A DNA stretch of 64,000 bases. Origin: Brevibacillus humidisoli (GTDB lineage Bacteria; Bacillota; Bacilli; Brevibacillales; Brevibacillaceae). A program made the position numbers and the translations under genes. The DNA is taken from positions 62,001 to 126,000 of the forward strand of contig NZ_CP087263.1 of assembly GCF_020923435.1 (NCBI RefSeq), given 5' to 3'. The notes under the pieces are model-generated. The model saw only the letters and a program-made list of their open reading frames with translations, was not told the DNA's origin and did not search any database. Shown here piece after piece: positions 7,573 through 20,575 of the stretch; position 1 is the stretch's first letter; each line of letters starts with the position of its first letter.

Positions 7573-8616
7573 CTATTCGGCAAACTGCGTATCGGCAGGA
7601 AAGTTGTAGTAATGTTCTCCAGTTAAGGAATGAAGCCGAAAACCGGCACGGGAGAAATCCTGATCCTCGTATTTGGACAAGTAGCTTACGTTTGTGGTGT
7701 GGTAGTCTCGGAAGTTGTTGATGTACGGAAAAAAGCGAACCACATCTGCGGTCGGTCCGGAGCCCGAGTACTCTTCCGGTGCAACACCATACGCATCTAG
7801 TGAAAATACGCCTGCGGCAACTTCATTCATTCGGAAAAATTTACGAACGGCTTGCTTTGAGTATGTAGCGTAGTCCACTTCACTCACAGACATCAACCGA
7901 ATGCCAAGTTGTTCGCGATACCGCAAAGCTTTGTCTATTTTTTCGCGGAAGGAAGAACGAAACGTACTCGGACTGCCCGATGTGGTGATGTCAGTAGCCA
8001 GCAGAAAATTTTCAAACAGGTAGATGTCCCGGCTGTCGAGGGCAGTTGGTTCTCCAGTGGGATTCCACTCTGGATGGACCGCACTCCCCAGTACATCATC
8101 CGGGTTCCAGGCGTTGACAAATACGGGCATGTCAAGCGTGTGTATGTATCGGACAATCTCGTTCAATCGGGCCCGGGAGACGTCGTAGTCAAATCCGGCA
8201 CAATCGAGAAAGATCCCATCTGCTCCAAGCTTTTTCCACTGACGGGCTTTGGTCTTCAGTGTTTCGGCCGAATGACCGGTAGATACCGCTAGATCGATAT
8301 ATCCGAACAGACGAGCCGCCTGGTTTCGTTCGTGGATCAGGCGAAAGATCGTTTTGGTAGAGCGATACTGACGGTGTCCCGGTTCCTCCAGGCCTTCGCC
8401 AAATACCAATACATCGTAAGCAGCTAGAATTTCGGCTGCTTTATGCTCATCCCAGACCTGGTTGACGCCTTTGGGTGAGCCATAGTAGATGAGCAGTCTG
8501 TAACCTGCTTCAGCATCAGTATTGTCGGCAGAAGCAGTTGTTGGATGGGACATGGCTGTCGACCACAACAAGAGAAGCATCGACATAGATAGGACCGCTG
8601 TCCGAATTGTTTTCAT
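7573..8616 (-). CDS. Secreted GH114-like polygalactosaminidase-type hydrolase (PelA-hydrolase-like)
   Basis: The 347-residue protein has a cleavable signal peptide (about 1-30, ending near ASA). The body resembles the TIM-barrel family of endo-alpha-1,4-polygalactosaminidases: LIYYGSPKG, FGYIDLAVSTG, and the acidic motif GADGIFLDCAGFDYD that should carry a catalytic Asp. Ega3 and the PelA hydrolase domain cut galactosamine-containing polymers. It is divergent from the Pel operon, whose deacetylase lacks a hydrolase domain, so it probably supplies that function as a separate exported enzyme for trimming or releasing Pel. AGGAGG precedes the ATG by 8 bases. Family placement is by motif reading, not by search. 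Confidence 0.7.
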   Translation of the reverse strand: MKTIRTAVLSMSMLLLLWSTAMSHPTTASADNTDAEAGYRLLIYYGSPKGVNQVWDEHKAAEILAAYDVLVFGEGLEEPGHRQYRSTKTIFRLIHERNQAARLFGYIDLAVSTGHSAETLKTKARQWKKLGADGIFLDCAGFDYDVSRARLNEIVRYIHTLDMPVFVNAWNPDDVLGSAVHPEWNPTGEPTALDSRDIYLFENFLLATDITTSGSPSTFRSSFREKIDKALRYREQLGIRLMSVSEVDYATYSKQAVRKFFRMNEVAAGVFSLDAYGVAPEEYSGSGPTADVVRFFPYINNFRDYHTTNVSYLSKYEDQDFSRAGFRLHSLTGEHYYNFPADTQFAE

Positions 8617-8793: not shown

Positions 8794-10965
8794 ATGAATG
8801 TCCTGATTACCGGAGGGTATGGTTTTATCGGCTCCGCAGTTGCCGAACGATTTTACAAGGAAGGACATCGGATTTACATCATTGATAATCTGTCTGCGGG
8901 ACGGCGCGAACACGTAACCGTTCCCCACAAATTTTATCAACTCAATGTGGAAGATCAGGCGTGTGAAGAAGTGTTTCGCAGTGTTGCCTTTGACGTCGTC
9001 ATCCACCTGGCAGCACAGACGCAGGTTACCTCGTCCCTGGAGCAGCCGCTGACGGACACTCGCACCAACATACTGGGTTTGGTAAACATGTTGAACTGTG
9101 CACGGCTGCATAAGGTTGGGAAGTTTATTTTGGCCTCGTCGGCGGCGGTATATGGGGAGGGCAGCCTGCCTGCGAAAGAGGAGGACCCGTGCAAGCCTCT
9201 CTCCCCTTATGGAACCAACAAACAGTTAGGGGAAGTGTACTGCCAAAAATGGCAGGAAATCTACGGGCTGGAAACACTCTGCCTGCGCTTTGCCAACGTG
9301 TACGGACCGAGACAGGGAAGCCGCGGGGAAGGGGGAGTCATCTCCGTATTTTTGCAACAGGTACGCGACGAAAAACCGCTGACGATCTACGGGGACGGAA
9401 GTCAGACCCGTGATTTTATTTACGTAGATGATGTGGCTGATGCCATCTACCGTGGTGCTACCAACAGTGCAAGCGGGATTTACAATGTCTCCAGTGGTGT
9501 TGAGGTAAGTCTTCACGATTTGATTGAGGCGATTCGTTCATTTGCCGTGGTTCCCGACGTCGTCTATCGCGAAGGGAGAGAAGGGGAGATACTGCGCTCG
9601 TGTCTGGACAACACGCGACTGAAGCAGGAGCTGGATTGGATACCTCTCTATACGCTGCAGGAAGGGTTGGCCCAGACATATGAATGGGTATGCAGGCAAG
9701 AAGCGGCTGCAGCCAGTCAGGAAGCGCCCGTTCCCCGGGAGACGCCGAAATGGCTTTCAGTTGTTCGGCCATTCGTGGAGAATGCACTCGCGTTTGGAGT
9801 GGTGTTTCTGCTCTCCCGTGATCAAAGCGGATATTTTTATCAGACCATTTTTGACTATAAATTGATCTATATTTTGCTGATGGCCTTGTTCTACGGTTCG
9901 CGACAGTCTTTCCTGTCGTCGCTGGCTGTTATCACGTTGTACGTGACGGACAGTCTGGACAACGGCCGTGACTGGGGAGCACTGCTGTACGACCCGGAAA
10001 CACTGTTCGTGGCGGCGTTGTATCTATTTTTTGGACTAGCTGTCGGATTTATGACGGATAAGCACAAAAAGGAACTGCAGTTCGCACGCAACGAGCTGCA
10101 TGTTGAACAACAGCGCTATCGACTGCTGATGGATGTGTACAAAGATACCCGCAGCGTCAAGGAAGCCCTGCAAAAGCAGGTGCTGACCAACCGGGACAGC
10201 CTTGGGAGACTCCAGTCGATCGTCGCTGAACTGGAGAGTCTGGAGCCAGAAGAGGTGGTTAGCGCTTCTGTAACCGTGCTGGAAAACGTACTCGATTCAA
10301 ACAGGATCTCCGTCTATTCTGTTTCCCAGACAGGCTACATGCGGCTTTTGTTGAAGTCAAACGCACCTGAATTCCAACTGCCGCGCACGCTCCATCTCAA
10401 TGACGCGCCAGCGTTAGCGACGGTTGTCGGCAAACAACGTCTTTGGGTGAACAAAAACCTGACTCCTGAGCTGCCGATGTATGCTGCACCGATCGTGCAC
10501 GATGGAGAGACAGTGGCGATCGTCTGCCTGCACGACCAAACATTTGAACGATTTACGCTCTACCATGAGAACCTGTTTAAAGTAGCGGTCGAACTGCTCT
10601 CCCGCTCGCTGTCCCGTGCCTTTACCTACGTGTCTGCGACAGGGATGGAGCGATACGTTGAGGGAACGGCGATTCTGCAGGAAGCAGTGTTTCGAGAAGT
10701 GGTTCGCAGCAAGCTGAAAGCCAAAGAACGCTCTCAGGCCGACTTCACGCTTCTGGCCGTTCAGACGGCAGAGGTGGAAGTGAAAAAAGTGGCCGAGCGA
10801 GTGATGCAGCAGATGCGCGACACCGATTATATGGGTATGATGGAGGGGCGTCTGGTGCTGCTTTTATCCAACACCGGAGCAGCAGAAGCACAGTCAGCGA
10901 TCGAACGGCTGCAGCGAAACGGGATTGTCACCGAACCGTTCAGCGGAGGGGTGACCTATGCTTGA
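8794..10965 (+). CDS. pelD: UDP-sugar epimerase fused to PelD (c-di-GMP receptor)
   Basis: The 723-residue protein joins two Pel functions. Residues 1 to about 305 are an extended SDR epimerase (ITGGYGFIGS, Tyr139-x3-Lys143 in PYGTNK), like GalE/PelX, which makes UDP-GalNAc from UDP-GlcNAc. Residues about 320-425 are membrane helices, followed by a coiled region, a GAF domain and a degenerate GGDEF domain, as in PelD. The GGDEF active site is lost (EGRLV), but the inhibitory-site motif RDTD (Arg675, Asp678) is kept; in PelD this binds cyclic di-GMP and switches on polymer synthesis. It is the first gene of the operon and overlaps the next by 8 bases. The start follows GGGGGTATGA. Confidence 0.82.
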   Translation: MNVLITGGYGFIGSAVAERFYKEGHRIYIIDNLSAGRREHVTVPHKFYQLNVEDQACEEVFRSVAFDVVIHLAAQTQVTSSLEQPLTDTRTNILGLVNMLNCARLHKVGKFILASSAAVYGEGSLPAKEEDPCKPLSPYGTNKQLGEVYCQKWQEIYGLETLCLRFANVYGPRQGSRGEGGVISVFLQQVRDEKPLTIYGDGSQTRDFIYVDDVADAIYRGATNSASGIYNVSSGVEVSLHDLIEAIRSFAVVPDVVYREGREGEILRSCLDNTRLKQELDWIPLYTLQEGLAQTYEWVCRQEAAAASQEAPVPRETPKWLSVVRPFVENALAFGVVFLLSRDQSGYFYQTIFDYKLIYILLMALFYGSRQSFLSSLAVITLYVTDSLDNGRDWGALLYDPETLFVAALYLFFGLAVGFMTDKHKKELQFARNELHVEQQRYRLLMDVYKDTRSVKEALQKQVLTNRDSLGRLQSIVAELESLEPEEVVSASVTVLENVLDSNRISVYSVSQTGYMRLLLKSNAPEFQLPRTLHLNDAPALATVVGKQRLWVNKNLTPELPMYAAPIVHDGETVAIVCLHDQTFERFTLYHENLFKVAVELLSRSLSRAFTYVSATGMERYVEGTAILQEAVFREVVRSKLKAKERSQADFTLLAVQTAEVEVKKVAERVMQQMRDTDYMGMMEGRLVLLLSNTGAAEAQSAIERLQRNGIVTEPFSGGVTYA

Positions 10966-11854
10966 ATTAGCCTTGATCGTCTATTACCTATTGGTCTGCC
11001 TCTATCTCGTTTGGCTGTTTCGGAAGCGGGATGGCGCTCGAGGCGGTTTGGCTGCGATCACATGTCTGATACCACTGGCCGGTCTGCCGCTCGTACTGAT
11101 CGCAGGACGTTCGGAAAGAAAAGCGAGAGAATCCGATCCGGAACGATTTGCTGAATTGACCGAGATCATACCAATGTTGGATCTGCCTGACAAAGTGGAT
11201 CTAGCCAAAGAATCGGCGATCGTTCCGCTGGAGGAAGTACTGGTCGTCAACGATTTCCAGACGCGCCGCCGGATCATACTGGATGCACTCAAGGAAGATT
11301 CGCTTGAATTGGTGCCGTTTCTGGCTAAAGCCGTTCGCAACGAAGACACGGAAACTTCGCACTATGCGGTGACAGCGATGGTGGAGATGAAACGGACCAT
11401 GATGACACAACTGCAGCGCTGCTCTGTCGCCTACGAACAGAATCCAGATGATCTGACCGTGCTATCTGAGTATGCCAATACTCTGCAACGATACCTAAAC
11501 AGCCGACTGATGGATGCTGAGACAGAACGTACTTACCGCTTTCTGCAGGCGGATGTGCTGGATCGGTTGTGCAAGCAACCTGGATGTGAAGAGGAACGAT
11601 GGGCAGAAAAAATAGAGTGCGAATTGATGCTGCATCGATATGACCTGGCGGAAAAGGCATGTGAGCGGTTTCTGGAGATGCATCCTGATTCGGAGCTGTC
11701 ATATGTGATGACCTTGAAGCTCTACTACACACTGCGAGCGGGAAATAAGTTCGTGAGGATGATGGAACAGTTGAAACAATCGCCGGTAAAAGTGTCGCAC
11801 GATACGCTGCAATTGATCAGATACTGGGATCAGGGTGTTCAGAATGCTCGTTAG
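10958..11854 (+). CDS. pelE: PelE-like membrane TPR protein
   Basis: The 298-residue protein has two N-terminal membrane helices (about 3-20 and 30-50) and a cytoplasmic helical repeat region (about 90-295, TPR-like: 'AYEQNPDDLTVLSEYA', 'CERFLEMHPDSELSYV'). Size, topology and position between PelD and the deacetylase match PelE, which joins PelD, PelF and PelG in the inner-membrane synthase complex. It overlaps pelD by 8 bases and the next gene by 11, so translation is coupled. Sequence similarity in PelE is low, so the name rests mainly on context. Confidence 0.72.
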   Translation: MLELALIVYYLLVCLYLVWLFRKRDGARGGLAAITCLIPLAGLPLVLIAGRSERKARESDPERFAELTEIIPMLDLPDKVDLAKESAIVPLEEVLVVNDFQTRRRIILDALKEDSLELVPFLAKAVRNEDTETSHYAVTAMVEMKRTMMTQLQRCSVAYEQNPDDLTVLSEYANTLQRYLNSRLMDAETERTYRFLQADVLDRLCKQPGCEEERWAEKIECELMLHRYDLAEKACERFLEMHPDSELSYVMTLKLYYTLRAGNKFVRMMEQLKQSPVKVSHDTLQLIRYWDQGVQNAR

Positions 11855-13688
11855 ATCGCAATCTCTCAAACGGATCATCGTACTACTCGCGTTTGTCCTG
11901 CTGTTAACTCTGTTGATGCATATGTCACGCTCCGATATCCTCCTGCAATTGAACCAGTATGGAACGGCCGAAGAACAGTCAGCCGAGATAGCTCCACGAG
12001 ATGCGCTGACGGCGGATGAGTGGAAGCGCATGAATCAGGCAAGGCTGATGGTTCTGTACGAACCGGGCAATCCGTCGAGTGAAAAGATCACCCATAATGT
12101 GGAGCAAACACTGATCAGCATGAAGAAATCGTACCGCCTCGCCGAAGTTGGCGGTGAACGGCCTGACCTGCAGCAGGTGGATGCGATTATGGTGACTTTT
12201 TCCGATCTGTCTCTGCTGGGAGAGCTAGGCTGGCTGGACCGTTATGTGGCCGAAGGGGGACACGTATTGTTTGCGACTGTTCCCGATTTAAACGATGCAT
12301 TTTACACGATCTACCGCAAGCTAGGAATTCTGGAGATCGGTGCGTATCTGGAAGCAAATGTTATTAACCTGCACACCAACATCTTGATTGGACATGCTGG
12401 TGATACATTTGTCGATCCGAACCTGCCAAATGAGATTCTGCGGGTAAAACTGGCAGACAGCAGCCGGGTCCATGCGACCGCGGAGAATGGAGTGCCGCTT
12501 GTCTGGGAGGCACCATACGGGAAGGGATCTTTTCTGATATGCAACGGGACGATGCTGCTGGATACGGCCAGCCGCGGTTTACTGGCTGGTGCGCTTGGGA
12601 TGATGCTGCCGGATTTTATCTACCCGGTGATTAACACTAAGGTTATGTACATCGATGATTTCCCAGCGCCCTTCCCATTAGGAACAAACCCGTCCATCTA
12701 TCGAGAGTACCAGCTCGATTTGCCGCAGTTTTACAAAAAGGTGTGGTGGCCGGACATGATACGGCTGGGGCAAGCCTACGATCTGGTCTATACAGGGGCG
12801 CTGATTGCCACCTACGAGGATGACGTGACGCCCCCCTTCGACTGGCAAAACGATGCCGATCTGGCCAATCTGATCCTCTACGGACGTGAATTGCTCAAAG
12901 AAGGCGGGGAGATCGCCGTTCATGGATACAATCACCAATCGCTCACCACGACCAGGCGTATCTCGTTTGCGTTTGGCTACAACCAGTGGTCTAGCATAGA
13001 TGAGATGACGCAGTCGCTGCGTGCAGTGCGGGAATATATCGAGGCGGCATTCCCCCACTATCGTTTGCGTACTTATGTCCCGCCTTCCAACGCATTAGGT
13101 CCGGAAGGGCGCGAAGCAGTCAAAGAGGCCCTGCCGGATGTACGCGCCATCTCCTCCCTCGCTGGAGAAGATGGTCGGAATCTGTCCTACCTGCAGGAAT
13201 ACGGAGTTGCGGAGGATGGCATTGTCGAAATGCCGCGAATCACCTACGGATACTGGATCGGAGCATATGAACAGTGGAGCATGGCCAACGCCGTTACGGT
13301 ATGGGGCGTCTTTTCTCACTTTGTTCACCCGGACGATATCCTTGATCAAAAACGCAGCGAGGGCAAAGGGTGGTCGGAATTGTACGCCGACTTTGAGCGT
13401 TTTGTCGCCTTGGTCCATGAGCGGCATGGCTGGCTGCGCAGCATGACGGCGGCCGATGCCAGCGTGCAGGTGAAGCGATGGGCGCTGAGCAAACCCGTCT
13501 TTGAATATCGACCGGACGGAGTATACGGGTACGTGAACAACTTTACTGGTGAACTGTATTTTGTGCTGCGCTCGGACAGAACGTTTGCCAAAGCAAATAA
13601 CTGCAAAGTCTTGCGGATTGACGAAGGTGTCTATCTGGTGCGGGCACAGCAGGAAACATTTTCGATTGAATGGACTGAAGAAGGATGA
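11844..13688 (+). CDS. pelA: Membrane-anchored PelA-type polysaccharide deacetylase (DUF2194)
   Basis: The 614-residue protein has one N-terminal membrane anchor (about 10-28) and a large outer domain. A CE4-like metal site is visible: MYIDDFPAP (Asp271, Asp272) and HGYNH (His360, His364). It corresponds to the deacetylase part of PelA, which removes N-acetyl groups from the nascent GalNAc polymer to make it cationic. No glycoside hydrolase domain is seen, unlike the two-domain PelA of Pseudomonas; a separate hydrolase gene lies upstream. The ATG at 11844 follows AGGGTG by 6 bases; a GTG at 11835 is an alternative. The stop overlaps the pelF start as ATGA. Confidence 0.78.
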   Translation: MLVRSQSLKRIIVLLAFVLLLTLLMHMSRSDILLQLNQYGTAEEQSAEIAPRDALTADEWKRMNQARLMVLYEPGNPSSEKITHNVEQTLISMKKSYRLAEVGGERPDLQQVDAIMVTFSDLSLLGELGWLDRYVAEGGHVLFATVPDLNDAFYTIYRKLGILEIGAYLEANVINLHTNILIGHAGDTFVDPNLPNEILRVKLADSSRVHATAENGVPLVWEAPYGKGSFLICNGTMLLDTASRGLLAGALGMMLPDFIYPVINTKVMYIDDFPAPFPLGTNPSIYREYQLDLPQFYKKVWWPDMIRLGQAYDLVYTGALIATYEDDVTPPFDWQNDADLANLILYGRELLKEGGEIAVHGYNHQSLTTTRRISFAFGYNQWSSIDEMTQSLRAVREYIEAAFPHYRLRTYVPPSNALGPEGREAVKEALPDVRAISSLAGEDGRNLSYLQEYGVAEDGIVEMPRITYGYWIGAYEQWSMANAVTVWGVFSHFVHPDDILDQKRSEGKGWSELYADFERFVALVHERHGWLRSMTAADASVQVKRWALSKPVFEYRPDGVYGYVNNFTGELYFVLRSDRTFAKANNCKVLRIDEGVYLVRAQQETFSIEWTEEG

Positions 13689-15115
13689 AGATTTGTATCA
13701 TTGCCGAAGGTTCGTATCCTTACATTACCGGCGGAGTCTCCAGTTGGATCCACACCCTGATTCGTTCCATGCTCCAGCATGAGTTTATCATTTACGCAAT
13801 TGGGGCTGAACAGCGGTATCGCGGCAGCTACAAGTACGAGCTGCCAGCCAACGTGGAACGGGTAGAAGAAGTGTTTCTCGACTCCTTTCATTTGGAAGAG
13901 AATCGCTGGGGGCGTACCTACAAGACCGGTGAACAAGAACGGGCGGCTCTGCAGTCTTTGATTGCCGGGGACAATGAGACAGACTGGGATCAACTGTTCC
14001 GTACGCTGCGCGATGAAAAGTGGCGAACCTCGACAGAGTTTTTGATGAGCCGCGATTATTTTGATCTGTTGAGTGAGTTGTGCCGAGTGCGATTTGAACA
14101 ACTGCCGTTTACCGAGATGTTTTGGACCGTGCGCTCGATGCTGCTGCCACTGGTCCAGCTGATCCGTCGCCCTTTGCCGGAAGCCGATCTGTACCATGCC
14201 GTATCGACCGGTTATGCCGGCGTGATCGCCAGCCTTGGCAAACACCTCTATCAAAAGCCAATGCTGCTGACCGAGCACGGCATCTATTCGCGTGAGCGTG
14301 AAGAGGAGATCATCAAGGCGGACTGGGTAAAAGGGTATTTCAAGGATCTCTGGATTCGCTACTTTTATGGATTATCGCGTTGTGCCTACCATTATGCCGA
14401 TCAAGTGGTTACGTTGTTTGAACGGAATCGGGAGATTGAGGTAGAGTTAGGCTGCCCGGAGTCCAAAATCTCCATTGTTCCGAACGGTATCAAGGTGGAA
14501 GAGTATTTGGACCTTCCTAGCAAACCAGAAGAAGACAAGATGATTCAGATCGGGGCGATCGTCCGCGTCGTGCCGATCAAGGATATCAAAACGATGCTTT
14601 ACAGTTTTGCGGCCGTCAAGCGAGAGGTACCGAATGCGACGTTCACGATCATGGGGCCGCATGACGAGGATCAGGAGTATTACCGTGAGTGCATCGATTT
14701 GGTCAGGATACTGGAACTGGAGGATGTTGCGTTCACCGGAAGCGTTGATGTCAAACAGTATCTCGGCCGGATGGATATCATCGTCCTAACCAGCATCAGC
14801 GAAGGACAGCCGTTGGCCGTACTAGAAGCGATGGCGGCGGGCAAACCGGTCGTAGCCACCGATGTCGGCAATTGCCGGGAGATGCTGTACGGCAGTGAGG
14901 CGGACCGTGCATACGGACGTGCGGGAACGGTGGTCCCGGTGCTGGACGATCAAGAGATTGCCAAAGCGATCATCGCATTATGCGACAGCAAGACGGATCG
15001 TCAGGTGATGGGAATGAACGGGCGCCGACGGGTGATGAACGCATACACCCATGAGTTGTTTATCGATCGGTATGAATCGCTGTACATGTCGCTCGGATTA
15101 GCATTGAGGAGGTGA
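13685..15115 (+). CDS. pelF: PelF glycosyltransferase (GT4-type)
   Basis: The 476-residue cytosolic protein begins MKICIIAEGSYPYITGGVSSWIH, the PelF signature with the nucleotide-sugar glycine loop. The C-terminal half has the GT-B donor site (IVRVVPIKDIKTML, SEGQPLAVLEAMAAGKPVVATDVGNCREM with the EX7E pattern). PelF polymerises UDP-GalNAc and hands the chain to PelG. It follows the deacetylase gene by a 4-base ATGA overlap, and its recognisable sequence anchors the identification of the whole locus. Confidence 0.93.
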   Translation: MKICIIAEGSYPYITGGVSSWIHTLIRSMLQHEFIIYAIGAEQRYRGSYKYELPANVERVEEVFLDSFHLEENRWGRTYKTGEQERAALQSLIAGDNETDWDQLFRTLRDEKWRTSTEFLMSRDYFDLLSELCRVRFEQLPFTEMFWTVRSMLLPLVQLIRRPLPEADLYHAVSTGYAGVIASLGKHLYQKPMLLTEHGIYSREREEEIIKADWVKGYFKDLWIRYFYGLSRCAYHYADQVVTLFERNREIEVELGCPESKISIVPNGIKVEEYLDLPSKPEEDKMIQIGAIVRVVPIKDIKTMLYSFAAVKREVPNATFTIMGPHDEDQEYYRECIDLVRILELEDVAFTGSVDVKQYLGRMDIIVLTSISEGQPLAVLEAMAAGKPVVATDVGNCREMLYGSEADRAYGRAGTVVPVLDDQEIAKAIIALCDSKTDRQVMGMNGRRRVMNAYTHELFIDRYESLYMSLGLALRR

Positions 15116-15123
15116 ACGGAGAC

Positions 15124-16545
15124 ATGGCTGGAATTGGATTTCAACTAAAGCGGCTGTTTGAGCGGGAAGGCTTGATGGGGCAGATCCAGGCGATTTCGTA
15201 TGCTTCGTTGGTGACGGTTGGTCCTATGCTTAGCTGCATCATCGCTGTAGCGATTATCCACTGGATGCTGGTGAGTGACAATGCTCCTTATGTTTCCCGA
15301 GAAGTGTTTACGGCGGGCATCGCCTATGCCTTTGCCTTTTCGTTTGTGATCACATCGCCGTTTTCGATGTTTCTGACTCGCTTGGCGTCCGATCTGCTGT
15401 ACGAAAAACGATACGACCAGCTTCTGCCTACCTTTTATCGGTATCTGCGGATTACGCTTCTCTTTGGCTGCGTACCTGCGCTTTTGTTTGTGTGGTGGAC
15501 ACCACTGTCGATCGCCGAAAAAGTTTCTTTGTTCGTGCTGTACATGGAATTGAACCTGGTCTGGATTGAAGTTGTATACGTGTCAGCGATGAAAGCGTAT
15601 CGTTCTATAGCCTACTCCTTTCTGGGCGGCATGACGTTGGCAGTAGCTCTGGTATGGATATACATGGAGTGGGCTGGTGCTGCGGTCTCGGCAGCCGGTT
15701 TGCTGACGATGATGGCAGCTGGGTTCTTTTTGATTGCTGCGACACTGCTGCGGGCGATCGAACGTTTCTTCCGTACGCCTGAATCACCCGCCCTGCCTCC
15801 ACTGCGCCAGGACCTTCAGCGGTACCCTTCCCTGCTGGGGATTGGTTTGTTTACCGGACTGTGCATGTTTTGGCACCAGTTTGCGCAGTGGATCTTTCAC
15901 GGGACCTGGTTGGCAGACGCATTTCTCGTCAAGCCGGAATACGATGTGGCCGTCTTTTATGCCGTGCTGTCCGTTTTGCCGACACTCGTCTGGTTTGTCG
16001 TGTCTGTCGAGACATCGTTTTATCCGAAGTTCCGTCAGTATTATGATGCGATACTTGGGAAGGGAACGATACTGGATATTGACCGGGCCAGGCAGGAGAT
16101 GCACAAGGTGCTGATTGGCGAGTTAGGCAAGCTGATGGGGATCCAGCTTGTCTTTTCCCTGATCTCCGTCGCCTGCGGGATCCGCTTTTTGCCGTATATC
16201 GGCTTTACCGCCCAACAGGTGGACACGTTCAACATCCTGGTGATGGCCTTTTACGTCTACGTGATGACCAGTGTGGTCCTGCTGCTCTTGCTCTATTTTG
16301 ACGATCGACTGGGTGCGCTCAGCCTCTCGGCGCTGTTTTTTGCGGCCAACCTTGCGGCATCCTGGCTGCTGCGAGACGAACAGTACCAAGGGCTGCCGCT
16401 GTTTGTCGCCTCTTTTCCGGTACTGGCCGTTACGCTGGGCAGGCTGGTCTATCGGTTGCGTCGTCTGCATTACGCAACGTTTAGCGCTCAGCCCCTGCAC
16501 AACCGCAAGAGAAAGCTGGAGCAGAAGCGTGAGTCGGCGGGATGA
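15124..16545 (+). CDS. pelG: PelG polysaccharide transporter (MOP family)
   Basis: The 473-residue protein begins MAGIGFQLKRLFEREGL, the PelG signature, followed by about twelve membrane helices and a basic C-terminus. PelG belongs to the Wzx/MATE-like flippase superfamily and moves the Pel chain across the membrane together with PelD and PelE. The ATG at 15124 is preferred because GAGGAGGTGA ends 8-9 bases before it; a GTG inside that ribosome site opens the frame at 15112. It follows pelF directly. Confidence 0.92.
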   Translation: MAGIGFQLKRLFEREGLMGQIQAISYASLVTVGPMLSCIIAVAIIHWMLVSDNAPYVSREVFTAGIAYAFAFSFVITSPFSMFLTRLASDLLYEKRYDQLLPTFYRYLRITLLFGCVPALLFVWWTPLSIAEKVSLFVLYMELNLVWIEVVYVSAMKAYRSIAYSFLGGMTLAVALVWIYMEWAGAAVSAAGLLTMMAAGFFLIAATLLRAIERFFRTPESPALPPLRQDLQRYPSLLGIGLFTGLCMFWHQFAQWIFHGTWLADAFLVKPEYDVAVFYAVLSVLPTLVWFVVSVETSFYPKFRQYYDAILGKGTILDIDRARQEMHKVLIGELGKLMGIQLVFSLISVACGIRFLPYIGFTAQQVDTFNILVMAFYVYVMTSVVLLLLLYFDDRLGALSLSALFFAANLAASWLLRDEQYQGLPLFVASFPVLAVTLGRLVYRLRRLHYATFSAQPLHNRKRKLEQKRESAG

Positions 16546-16602: not shown

Positions 16603-18318
16603 ATGGCTCGATCATCTCGAAATATACGGCCTCTTGTCTGGCTGCTGCTGATCGCTATCATCATCGGCGGATGTCAGCCAGCGGAGCCAGATCAGCAGCC
16701 GCAACCTGTCACCTCTCAGATGGATGAAAACGGAGAGTACACCCCCAAGCTAGTGGAAAACCGACTGGTATATGAGGACGACCAGCCTGACACCATCGCT
16801 CACTTGTACGTGACGGTGACAGATGATAATCTCACCGCCGAGCAACCGTTTACCTGGGCACAGCTAAACAAGATCTCCAATGTAGAAGAAAAAAAGAAGG
16901 CAGGGAAACTGAATGTGATCGTTCAGGAAGGGACGGCGGAGGGGCCCGAGAGTGGTTTGTTCGGCTATGACGCCTCCCATCCCAATGCAACGATTACGGT
17001 GCGCGGCGCATCGTCGCTGAGGCGAGCGCAAAAGTCGTACAAGATCAAACTATTCGACAGTGCCGGCTACTGGCGGAATCACCAGACGATCAACCTGAAC
17101 AAACACGTGTCAGACTTTTCTCGAATGCGCAACAAACTTAGTTTTGACTACTTTACCAAGATTCCGCATATGACCAGTTTGCGGACGCAATTCGTCCACC
17201 TCCATGTCAGGGACATGACAGGAGGCGGTCCAGCCCAATTCGTAGATTACGGGTTGTTTACGCAGATTGAGCATCCCAACAAATCGTTTTTGCGGATGCA
17301 CGGACTCGATCCGTATGGCCACTTGTACAAGGCCAGCTTTTTTGAGTTTCTCCGCTACCCTGATCAGTTGAAGCTGGCAGACGATGCGGGCTACGACAAG
17401 GAAGCGTTTGAATCGATTTTGGAGATCGATGGCTCCAACGATCACTCCAAGCTGCTGCAGATGCTGGACGATGTAAATGACATGGGCAAGGACTTTGACG
17501 AAGTCTTCGAGACACACTTTGACCGTGACAACTTTTTGACCTGGATGGCGGCCAACATCCTGATGGACAACATCGATACCAACTCCCAGAACTTTTTCCT
17601 CTACTCACCGCTTAACTCCCAGAAGTGGTTTTTCCTGCCGTGGGATTACGACGGGACGTGGGGGTACTTTGAAACGTACGGGCAGAAGCCAGGACGACGT
17701 GCACCATGGCAGCGCGGCATCGCCAACTACTGGGGAAGCGTGTTGCAAAAGCGATTCTTCAAAAACCCGGAAAACGTGCAACAATTGGTGGACAAGGTGG
17801 AGGAGTTGAGCCAGATCATCACGCCCGAAGAGAACCGGCGCCTGATCGAGACTTACAAGCCGATTGTCTCCTCCTATGTCCGGCGGGCTCCTGACGTCGG
17901 CTATCTGCCTGGTCCGCTAGATCTGTACGATGAAGAGCTTCAGCGGATCATCGAGCAGCCGCCGGAAAACAAGCGGAAGTTTATCGAGAGTCTGCAAAAT
18001 CCGATGCCATTCTTCCTGGGCGATGTCCGGCAAGAGCAAGGGAAACTGACCTTTAACTGGGATCCGTCGTACGATTTCCAAGGTGACGATGTGACGTACC
18101 ACTTCCAATTGGCCAAAGAACCAACCTTTGCCCGACCGCTGGTAGACCGGGACGGGCTGACGGGAACGACTTTGCAGTTGGACGCGATGGAACAGGGACG
18201 TTACTTTTGGCGCGTGATTGTTACGGATGCACAAGGGAACAGCATGTCCGCGTTTGATACGTACCGCAGTCAAGATGACGTGTATCATCACGGGGTTCGA
18301 GAGTTTTACGTGGAGTAA
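16603..18318 (+). CDS. CotH kinase-like lipoprotein
   Basis: The 571-residue protein has a lipoprotein signal (IIIGGC, Cys24) so it is anchored outside the membrane. The CotH domain spans about 65-420: 'VRGASSLRRAQKSYKIKL', 'DNIDTNSQNFFLYSPL', 'FLPWDYDGTWG', matching the atypical protein-kinase fold of spore coat CotH with its metal-binding Asp motifs. A fibronectin/Ig-like region follows (about 470-570, 'LTFNWDPSYDFQGDDVTYHFQLA'). It is separated from pelG by 57 bases with its own ribosome site (AAAGGAGGAG). CotH phosphorylates coat proteins in spores; here the partner is unknown, and phosphorylation of a surface polymer or protein is inference. Confidence 0.85.
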   Translation: MARSSRNIRPLVWLLLIAIIIGGCQPAEPDQQPQPVTSQMDENGEYTPKLVENRLVYEDDQPDTIAHLYVTVTDDNLTAEQPFTWAQLNKISNVEEKKKAGKLNVIVQEGTAEGPESGLFGYDASHPNATITVRGASSLRRAQKSYKIKLFDSAGYWRNHQTINLNKHVSDFSRMRNKLSFDYFTKIPHMTSLRTQFVHLHVRDMTGGGPAQFVDYGLFTQIEHPNKSFLRMHGLDPYGHLYKASFFEFLRYPDQLKLADDAGYDKEAFESILEIDGSNDHSKLLQMLDDVNDMGKDFDEVFETHFDRDNFLTWMAANILMDNIDTNSQNFFLYSPLNSQKWFFLPWDYDGTWGYFETYGQKPGRRAPWQRGIANYWGSVLQKRFFKNPENVQQLVDKVEELSQIITPEENRRLIETYKPIVSSYVRRAPDVGYLPGPLDLYDEELQRIIEQPPENKRKFIESLQNPMPFFLGDVRQEQGKLTFNWDPSYDFQGDDVTYHFQLAKEPTFARPLVDRDGLTGTTLQLDAMEQGRYFWRVIVTDAQGNSMSAFDTYRSQDDVYHHGVREFYVE

Positions 18319-18340
18319 AGGCGGGGGGGAGTCTGGCGAT

Positions 18341-19048
18341 ATGCAAAAGTTCGGAAAAAAACTGCGTCATGAGCTAAAGTATTATCTGCACCGGCATGAA
18401 GTGGCGGGGCTGCGTGACCGCGTGCGGCATCTCCTGCCGCTCGATTCCCATTCGGTCAGCGCTGAGGGGTATCACATCCGCAGTCTCTATTTTGACAACA
18501 TGCACGAAAGTGCCCTCTACGACAAGATCAATGGAGTGTTCCAGCGAAAAAAGTATCGCATCCGCATCTACAACGTGAGCGATCGGGTGATCAAGCTGGA
18601 ACGGAAAAGCAAATGGAATGAATACGTGATGAAAGAGTCGGCGGATCTGACCCGCGAGCAGGTGGAGCGTCTGTTGAACGGCGAAATCGACTGGTTGGGC
18701 AGCAGCGGACATCCCTTGATGAGCGATTTCTACCGTGACTTGAAGCACGAAGTGATGCGTCCTTCGGTGATTGTTGACTACACTCGGGAAGCGTACGTGG
18801 ACGAGTTGACCAATTCCCGTATCACGTTGGACAAGGGTCTGGCGGCAGCGTTTCACGCCGTTGATCTGTTCGACCCCGAACTGCCGGTGTGGGACGTGAT
18901 CGAAGGACCGCGCACCATCCTGGAGGTCAAGTATGATCGTTTTATCCCGAGCAACATTCGGGCCCTGCTCCAATTGTCAGCCCATAACCGCTCGACGATC
19001 TCCAAATACGTCCTCTGCAAGGAAAGGCAAAAAGTATACAGCTATTAG
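18341..19048 (+). CDS. VTC-domain polyphosphate polymerase-fold protein
   Basis: The 235-residue protein is a single VTC domain (triphosphate-tunnel fold): RHELKYYL, VRHLLPLD, IRSLYFDN, KYRIRIYN, KLERKSKW, and the C-terminal ILEVKYD. The alternating basic and acidic residues line the tunnel that binds nucleotide, polyphosphate and metal in yeast Vtc4. The frame opens far upstream inside the CotH gene, but GGGGGGAG before the ATG at 18341 and the start of similarity there set the start. It lies between CotH and DUF4956 genes, a combination seen in other bacteria. Whether it makes polyphosphate or transfers phosphate to a partner is not known. Confidence 0.85.
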   Translation: MQKFGKKLRHELKYYLHRHEVAGLRDRVRHLLPLDSHSVSAEGYHIRSLYFDNMHESALYDKINGVFQRKKYRIRIYNVSDRVIKLERKSKWNEYVMKESADLTREQVERLLNGEIDWLGSSGHPLMSDFYRDLKHEVMRPSVIVDYTREAYVDELTNSRITLDKGLAAAFHAVDLFDPELPVWDVIEGPRTILEVKYDRFIPSNIRALLQLSAHNRSTISKYVLCKERQKVYSY

Positions 19049-19099
19049 ATGGCAGGTGGCGGCGGGCATACCGCCGCACAGGTCAGGAAGAGGTGGATC

Positions 19100-19780
19100 A
19101 TGGACGGACTGATCAATTTTCAGGATATCTTTAAGAAAAGTGTGTTAAACCTAGAGTCGTTTCAGACGATATCGCTGCTCGATACGCTGTTAGGACTGCT
19201 GATTTCGTTTCTGATCGGCATGTTTATCTATTATGTCTATCGGGTTTGTTTTCGCGGCGTCGTCTATAGCCACAATTACAATATCACGTTTGTCTTGATG
19301 ACGATTATCACCGCACTAATCATCATGACGATCAGCACCAACATCGTGCTGTCGCTGGGGATGGTCGGCGCCCTCAGTATCGTGCGTTTCCGGACAGCGG
19401 TCAAAGATCCGATGGATATCGTCTACATGTTTTGGTCCATATCGGCAGGGATCGCGGTGGGGGCGAAGATTTACCCGATTGCGATCATCGGCTCACTGGT
19501 TGTCGGCGCTACGATCTGGTGGCTTTCCCGTCGGCGGGACAAGACTGCACCATACCTGCTGATCCTCCATTACGAGGATATGGCGGAGGAAGAAGTAAAA
19601 CGGCAAGTGCGCAAGATCAACGCTGTGTTAAAGTCGAAGACGATTCGCAAAGGCGTGACCGAACTAACGGTGGAGATGCGCATACGCGACGACAACACAG
19701 CCTTTGTCAACGAGATCTCCAGCATCGAAGGGGTCAGGGATGTCGCGCTCGTAAGCTACAATGGCGAATACGCCCAGTAG
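19100..19780 (+). CDS. DUF4956 membrane protein
   Basis: The 226-residue protein has four predicted membrane helices (about 28-48, 65-85, 88-105, 125-150) with the conserved loop LSLGMVGALSIVRFRTAVKDP between them, diagnostic of DUF4956. The C-terminal 70 residues form a soluble alpha/beta domain. The ATG at 19100 follows GGAAGAGGTGG. DUF4956 genes are commonly next to VTC-domain genes, and the pair probably forms one membrane machine. Its role in the Pel locus is unknown. Confidence 0.82.
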   Translation: MDGLINFQDIFKKSVLNLESFQTISLLDTLLGLLISFLIGMFIYYVYRVCFRGVVYSHNYNITFVLMTIITALIIMTISTNIVLSLGMVGALSIVRFRTAVKDPMDIVYMFWSISAGIAVGAKIYPIAIIGSLVVGATIWWLSRRRDKTAPYLLILHYEDMAEEEVKRQVRKINAVLKSKTIRKGVTELTVEMRIRDDNTAFVNEISSIEGVRDVALVSYNGEYAQ

Positions 19781-20152: not shown

Positions 20153-20224
20153 GCGGACATTTGTCGATTCCCTTCCCTTGGCCTATAATGGAAGCAGAGA
20201 CTGTTGGAGGGGGATTGGAAAGAG

Positions 20225-20575
20225 ATGAAGATCCTGTCTGTCACAGGAGAGAGCGTGCCGCCCGGCAAAGGCGGGTCGCCGTCGGACACGTTTGACCGAT
20301 CGATCGCAACTTACGAGGATGGGGGGCAGACCAAGACGCTGACCGTCACCTACGTCCGCTACTTTGCCAGACTGTTGGCTGAGAGAGGGATATATGATGA
20401 GGAGCAAGCAGGGGTTGCGGTAAACAAACTGGCTGCCGTCCTCTTTTTGGAAAAGCACCCGGCTCCGAAGGAATCACGCCATTATTTTAACGATGCGGAC
20501 GCGTTTATGGCTTTATTCGAAGGGTTTTCTCTTGAACCGTTTCGTGCGAAGTACGGACATCTCGCCCTTGCGTAA
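20225..20575 (+). CDS. Small hypothetical protein
   Basis: This 116-residue soluble protein has no motif I recognise. It has a Gly/Ser/Pro-rich stretch (ESVPPGKGGSPSDTF) and an acidic, helix-prone C-terminal half. GGAGGGGG lies about 10 bases before the ATG, and a clear terminator overlaps the 3' end, so it looks like an independent short transcript. Confidence 0.6.
   Translation: MKILSVTGESVPPGKGGSPSDTFDRSIATYEDGGQTKTLTVTYVRYFARLLAERGIYDEEQAGVAVNKLAAVLFLEKHPAPKESRHYFNDADAFMALFEGFSLEPFRAKYGHLALA

Follow-up and report, generated by a model that had tools for sequence, protein, structure and literature searches.

The window analysed here is a stretch of 64,000 nucleotides of the Brevibacillus humidisoli genome (NZ_CP087263.1, positions 62,001 to 126,000), in which three genes follow pelG at the end of a pel operon. 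They encode a CotH-family kinase, a VTC-domain protein with a polyphosphate-polymerase fold and a DUF4956 membrane protein. The new observation is that VTC and DUF4956 form a near-constant pair which accompanies signal-bearing CotH proteins, mostly far from Pel. The Pel-trio arrangement itself, noted in a preliminary description of this DNA, was published in 2020 (PMC7112168) and tested genetically in 2025 (PMC12345266). We found no report of a VTC-DUF4956 pairing, of a coupling with signal-bearing CotH or of a PelG-CotH fusion in the literature searched, which excluded supplements and most subscription journals. We tentatively propose, as a possibility rather than a probability, that the trio acts as a general module for phosphorylation at the cell surface and serves Pel in this operon; VTC would produce polyphosphate, DUF4956 would be its partner and CotH would use the polyphosphate on a client. 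The VTC-DUF4956 partnership and its tie to signal-bearing CotH appear much firmer than this full mechanism.

The pairing was examined in a phylum sample of 398 genomes, plus 14 named controls. VTC and DUF4956 match an identical set of 64 of the 398 genomes, from 34 families, and the same three controls (Bacteroides ihuae, Corynebacterium glutamicum and Methanosarcina acetivorans); in C. glutamicum and the archaeon M. acetivorans, CotH matches as well. As relatives among the 398 genomes are not independent, the Fisher value for this co-occurrence is no true probability. VTC is found within 3 kb of 73 of the 74 DUF4956 hits; in the exception, both the DUF4956 hit and the VTC of the genome lie at contig ends. 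Conversely, DUF4956 is missing within 3 kb of 5 of the 78 VTC hits, of which one is that VTC at a contig end and two are halves of a single broken gene. The 75 fetched neighbourhoods comprise 76 VTC frames, one gene being split into two; DUF4956 lies on the same strand as VTC for 73 of these frames; the distance is 100 bp or less in 69 cases, and the median gap is 10 bp. With VTC, a domain of unknown function (DUF4956) gains a constant partner. One genome (G308, locus L105 in our numbering) exhibits a second VTC-DUF4956 copy that is apparently decayed, with VTC in two frames next to a DUF4956 remnant. Genes of the response regulator and histidine kinase types recur next to VTC-DUF4956, often divergently (neighbourhoods L031-L105; a cluster of 70 genes from 34 loci, two members of which were typed with Pfam).

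CotH proteins were called signal-bearing when a 12-residue stretch near the N-terminus had a mean hydropathy of at least 2.0; G376 (1.93) was included by eye and G415 through its PelG-CotH fusion, and G337 and G461 were scored as signal-bearing despite another, signal-less copy. CotH matches 56 of the 398 genomes, one of which (G176, with a hit under the cut-off) was dropped from the tally, and is present somewhere in the genome in 50 of the 64 VTC genomes. A copy with a hydrophobic N-terminus is found in 49 of these 50, the exception being G066, which has only a 352-residue spore-type copy. All 42 VTC-linked CotH copies bear a signal, and in 11 of the 49 genomes CotH is not linked to VTC. Five CotH genomes are devoid of VTC: four have signal-less copies only and one (G072) has a lipoprotein. 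Counted from the CotH side, 49 of 50 signal-bearing CotH genomes have VTC. A class sample of 86 genomes contains 21 with CotH, 14 of which are new, and VTC is present in 10/10 of the new genomes with signal-bearing CotH and in 0/4 of those with the spore type only. Five of these ten had an earlier VTC result, having been picked for PelG; for the nine CotH genomes without a prior VTC test, the figures are 5/5 and 0/4, although the signal was not read strictly before the VTC result and the open-frame lengths were known beforehand. With both samples pooled, VTC is found in 59/60 signal-bearing CotH genomes versus 1/9 spore-type-only genomes, the baseline being 64/398. This near-strict coupling offers a testable answer to the question of the phosphate source of extracellular kinases.

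CotH is not the only third gene. Among the 63 VTC genomes besides that of the window, CotH lies near VTC in 37 (5 of them also with Cthe_2159), Cthe_2159 alone in 18 and neither in 8. The Cthe_2159 counts come from our own profile, with Pfam (PF14262, annotated as carbohydrate-binding) confirming three loci, and include unchecked an opposite-strand frame of 415 residues in G292. From these neighbourhoods, the Cthe_2159 protein seems to take CotH's place in other genomes. One locus (L059) has a CotH carrying lamin-tail domains.

The VTC and CotH enzymes look active. Across 149 VTC proteins, 14 positions are invariant, including R73, R75, E87, K89, R149, R160 and E195, and K13, D52, S221 and K222 are kept in 148/149; a degenerate non-enzyme was therefore rejected. 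The protein of the window exhibits a VTC/TTM domain with catalytic basic residues and the metal-binding glutamate, and yeast Vtc4 (3g3q) is recovered with the profile of the family at an E-value of 1.4e-21. The residues R264, R266 and E426 of yeast Vtc4 were substituted to impair the enzyme (PMC9911596), and residue matching to Vtc4 relies on the printed alignment. CotH aligns with the solved CotH 5jd9 (E 9.9e-14), and its catalytic-type residues, Asp325 (122/124), Asn330 (116/124) and Asp348 (123/124), lie opposite conserved residues of 5jd9. Numbered through 5jd9, Asp325 and Asp348 would correspond to D228 and D251, the catalytic aspartates of Bacillus subtilis CotH (PMC7821199). Three rows deviate at either aspartate: L135 and L182, which are two-CotH loci, and L066, a truncated protein.

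DUF4956 comprises long hydrophobic helices and a C-terminal ACT-like domain (AF2 model, pLDDT 85.7). At the end of one long helix, Arg96 and Arg98 are invariant (141/141) and may serve an anion path. In its C-terminal domain, DUF4956 is similar in fold to MgtC (2lqj, Foldseek E 7.9e-4), and Pfam MgtC is weakly matched by 24 of 48 DUF4956 proteins (best E 1.9e-4), the protein of the window not being among them. A known channel was considered for DUF4956 and rejected, as the fold matches listed (50 of 1398) all name soluble proteins or domains.

With regard to Pel, the distance to pelG is 8 kb or less for only 3 of the 78 VTC hits in the phylum sample, so a Pel-only module was rejected. PelG exceeds the cut-off in 13 of the 398 genomes, eight of which have neither VTC nor CotH; the distances were taken from 13 PelG places, weak or fragmentary hits (G040, G281, G336, G352, G391 and one of G265) being excluded. 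In the class sample, VTC is found up to about 4 kb downstream of pelG in 12/26 PelG genomes, which shows that the link between trio and pel is not strict. VTC and CotH are both absent from a pel-carrying relative of the same genus (G446). In the genome G455 (L207), one of two pel loci carries the trio and the other has no VTC nearby.

From 80 loci fetched with VTC, 71 VTC genes, including that of the window, were classified, and 24 lie near PelG. Gene calling was crude (longest non-overlapping open reading frames), which makes these locus counts too low; the neighbourhood distances above used all frames. In the VTC tree, 34 pel-linked copies cluster but do not form one clade, with 7 changes, at least 3 of them forced by well-supported branches. 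The order PelG-CotH-VTC-DUF4956 is constant in pel-linked loci, except for L161 and L188. Outside Pel, most such loci have the order VTC-DUF4956-CotH, and 12 loci exhibit CotH-VTC-DUF4956 without PelG in the stretch read, some of them on short contigs. Other settings of the trio comprise GT2 glycosyltransferases, or DHHW/AlgX-like, MBOAT-like and weakly bactofilin-like proteins (L041, L083 and L101), and in L163 and L190 its neighbours are apparently housekeeping genes. A tandem CotH pair lies between pelG and VTC in L063, L115, L122, L126 and L182, one copy of L182 having altered catalytic residues.

Of the 50 full-length PelG rows fetched, 10 have PelG and CotH in a single open frame of 1029-1088 residues (loci L117-L121, L130 and L131, and three further genomes), a proportion that gives no prevalence because loci were picked by VTC or PelG. 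The fusions form one clade (support 100/99), which favours one origin, the ten fusions not being ten independent events. For this analysis, L199 was assigned to the trio class by hand, its VTC being masked by an antisense frame, and L161 and L188 were scored as lacking the trio though fetched as VTC loci. All ten fusion junctions (10/10) retain the lipobox cysteine together with basic and hydrophobic stretches, and nine of them the motif used (LFAC in L196), which would suit a CotH part that continues to be exported or to undergo lipoprotein processing. These natural fusions link CotH to the PelG exit and suggest the site of action in Pel biofilms.

Gene order, catalytic residues, the VTC-DUF4956 pairing, the CotH co-occurrence and the fusions come from the sequences themselves; we infer the polyphosphate product, its outward passage, its use as a donor and the client. 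Cytoplasmic VTC would polymerise polyphosphate from ATP at the membrane, and DUF4956, its constant membrane partner, would anchor VTC or move the product outward. Outside, where ATP would be scarce, lipid-anchored CotH would use that high-energy phosphate to phosphorylate its client. In pel operons, the client could be either Pel itself, as a nascent chain, or some protein in the export complex, since CotH adjoins PelG and even forms one protein with PelG in some species. VTC-DUF4956 may also supply other surface proteins such as Cthe_2159. The preliminary description proposed a phosphate-decorating system for Pel: the phosphate part is retained, with a kinase outside the membrane, a polyphosphate-polymerase fold inside it, conserved catalytic residues and PelG-CotH fusions, whereas specificity for Pel is not, given the 3 of 78 VTC hits near pelG. 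In a bolder version, which seems to us distinctly improbable, VTC-DUF4956 would act in prokaryotes as a synthase and exporter of polyphosphate, providing phosphoryl donor outside the cell. Signal-bearing CotH proteins would then be extracellular kinases driven by this polyphosphate, and in pel operons they would phosphorylate nascent Pel at its exit from PelG. If this bolder version is true, an ATP-independent extracellular phosphorylation system would exist, with VTC-DUF4956 in the 34 families of this one phylum and all three protein families also in C. glutamicum and M. acetivorans.

Several observations weigh against the proposed module. MgtC is not known as an established polyphosphate channel, so the likeness of DUF4956 to MgtC counts here, as do its soluble fold matches. 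PPK1, the ordinary polyphosphate kinase, is present elsewhere in the B. humidisoli genome. The CotH lipoprotein of G072 occurs in a VTC-negative draft (93% complete). Conversely, CotH is absent from 14 of the 64 genomes with VTC-DUF4956, although 12 of these 14 have a gene of the Cthe_2159 type in the stretch fetched, which indicates that supplying a kinase is not the only role of VTC-DUF4956. Characterised CotH works with ATP; the source of ATP for the reaction of the spore kinase is termed unanswered (PMC7821199). The strongest contrary evidence comes from an mBio study of 2025, in which each gene of the trio was deleted singly in Streptococcus intermedius (SIR_1594-1592): for the VTC gene (SIR_1593), no phenotype is described in the part of that paper cited here (PMC12345266). 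Deletion of the CotH gene (SIR_1594) led to less Pel and deletion of SIR_1592, encoding a protein with transmembrane (TM) and ACT parts, to more Pel, and each of these two mutants lost >50% of its aggregation in 10% sputum medium (PMC12345266). SIR_1592 is equated here with DUF4956 from its description, as the name DUF4956 is absent from the cited part of that paper. These opposite effects on Pel, with none described for VTC, argue against a linear donor pathway, which predicts alike phenotypes.

The opposite shifts in Pel amount fit a regulatory module, which we consider somewhat unlikely. Drawing on traces of ATP outside the cell or on a different donor, CotH would phosphorylate some protein in the Pel export complex; MgtC-like DUF4956 and VTC would tune Pel according to phosphate or ATP status, with no export of polymer. 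Control of Pel through protein phosphorylation was suggested as a possible role of CotH by Whitfield in 2020 (PMC7112168). The MgtC/ACT resemblance of DUF4956, with the weak Pfam matches described above, and the recurring response regulator and histidine kinase type genes are also consistent with regulation. However, regulation leaves unexplained both the contrast between signal-bearing and cytoplasmic CotH in their association with VTC (59/60 versus 1/9) and the retention of the VTC catalytic residues.

It is less likely still that VTC-DUF4956 places surface polyphosphate which bridges cationic Pel or calcium, with CotH and Cthe_2159 holding the polyphosphate and kinase activity being secondary. 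A polyanion could pair with a polycation, and the 18 of 63 genomes with Cthe_2159 and without CotH in the stretch would suit such a matrix, but near-invariant kinase residues are unexpected for a mere binder, and most CotH-type loci sampled are without Pel. Finally, the 3/78 VTC hits near pelG and the pel loci without VTC or CotH, in G446 and in eight PelG genomes of the phylum sample, could suggest an independent trio that came to lie behind pel by chance in some lineages without any functional tie, which is very improbable given the PelG-CotH fusions conserved in ten loci, the constant order in pel-linked loci other than L161 and L188, and the two S. intermedius trio mutants that alter Pel and aggregation (PMC12345266).

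In the window, Pfam and NCBIfam scans of the open reading frames delimit a complete Gram-positive pel operon at 8794-16545, in the order pelD-E-A(DA)-F-G (Table 1). As the preliminary description stated, the trio follows directly in the same direction and closely spaced, with distances of 57 bp (pelG-CotH), 22 bp (CotH-VTC) and 51 bp (VTC-DUF4956), and Pfam confirms the three families. The VTC gene is the sole VTC match in the whole genome, and neither a signal nor a membrane domain was found in its protein. The CotH N-terminus exhibits a hydrophobic stretch followed by a lipobox-like IGGC. Residues 3-232 of PelD match the SDR family PF01370 (E 3e-61), with a glycine-rich TGGYGFIG at the start and a YGTNK stretch, like the Brevibacillus type of PMC7112168. 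As to transcription from pelG into cotH, the terminator scan, which performs at chance overall (10 found, 10.1 expected), gives zero + strand sites between the two genes. A single weak promoter-like + strand site (9 of 12; 16 found versus 8.7 expected in the scan) lies within the cotH start at 16634-16661, so cotH may be transcribed separately. Stop-codon read-through from pelG into cotH was considered, since in the window the two genes share a frame and are separated by a single TGA, and was rejected because their relative frames spread 9/9/6 in 24 split loci. Where bacilli have the PelA-hydrolase-like gene, the window has a divergent gene (7573-8616, - strand) for a 347-residue protein with a signal-like N-terminus. 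A sequence search of the PDB gave no match for this protein, and Pfam gave none over the cut-off (AP_endonuc_2 TIM barrel, E 0.05).

Table 1 Genes of the pel operon and of the trio behind it (positions in the window; HMM, hidden Markov model)
Feature	Position	Strand	Basis
pelD, N-terminal SDR/epimerase + GAF domain	8794..10965	+	SDR and C-terminal parts by HMM
pelE-like, weak TPR	10958..11854	+	position; TPR_14 E 0.0013, under cut-off
pelA deacetylase part (DUF2194)	11835..13688	+	PF09960 E 7e-150
pelF glycosyltransferase	13685..15115	+	PelF NF038011 E 6.8e-120
pelG exporter/translocase	15112..16545	+	PF16933 E 1.2e-118
CotH-family kinase, predicted lipoprotein, 571 residues	16603..18318	+	PF08757 E 7.5e-61
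VTC-domain (polyphosphate-polymerase fold) protein, 235 residues	18341..19048	+	PF09359 E 2.1e-39
DUF4956 membrane protein; alternative ATG 19049	19100..19780	+	PF16316 E 4.7e-11

Several known systems resemble the trio in part. With the eukaryotic VTC complex (Vtc4 with Vtc1/Vtc3), it shares the VTC/TTM catalytic domain, the same conserved residues and the combination of a polymerase with a membrane partner. Unlike the eukaryotic polymerase subunit, the VTC protein has no SPX and no membrane domain of its own, only PF09359 being found in the 237-residue stretch scanned, and DUF4956 has no sequence or fold match to that complex among the matches listed. The Bacillus spore-coat CotH (5jd9) belongs to the same kinase family and has the same catalytic Asp/Asn positions, whereas the CotH of the window is lipid-anchored and longer, with an extra C-terminal region past the kinase domain; spore-type copies are signal-less and usually occur without VTC. 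In Clostridium perfringens, the NELoc-2 cluster described in 2010 comprises VTC, a membrane protein named tubulin, CotH and a glycosyltransferase (PMC2879425). The membrane protein has about 226 residues, and L041 is similar in order and sizes, a comparison by sizes and names only; NELoc-2 differs in a second VTC pair, a resolvase gene and the absence of Pel genes from those reported in the part of the paper cited here (PMC2879425).

The closest relatives are the Gram-positive pel loci. Whitfield in 2020 described pelDEADAFG operons of streptococci and clostridia that are directly adjoined by cotH, a poly-phosphate polymerase (PPP), DUF4956 and DUF4832, and a variant accessory set in bifidobacteria, in which the optional DUF4832 is replaced (PMC7112168). 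The window shares with these loci the gene content and order, the SDR-PelD and the contiguity behind pelG, but is without DUF4832, as the downstream gene (20204-20575) has no Pfam match. The accessory set was linked there to the SDR domain on PelD, the Brevibacillus-type SDR being termed possibly functional (PMC7112168); this link is not strict, since L109-L112 and L198 exhibit SDR-PelD without the trio. In L109-L112, the frame behind pelG has 714-1194 residues, and the one scanned (L110) is without a Pfam match. The S. intermedius genes SIR_1594-1592 and those of the window are alike in comprising CotH, a polyphosphate-polymerase domain and a TM+ACT membrane protein behind pelG (PMC12345266). 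According to the part of that paper cited here, the three-gene synteny is not found beyond the Pel locus (PMC12345266), which is contradicted by the copies away from pel: most copies here have no pel genes in the stretch read, including the 12 in CotH-VTC-DUF4956 order. The hosts differ as well, with streptococci, clostridia and bifidobacteria in PMC7112168, and Paenibacillus, Cohnella, Exiguobacterium and other Bacilli for the window and its related loci.

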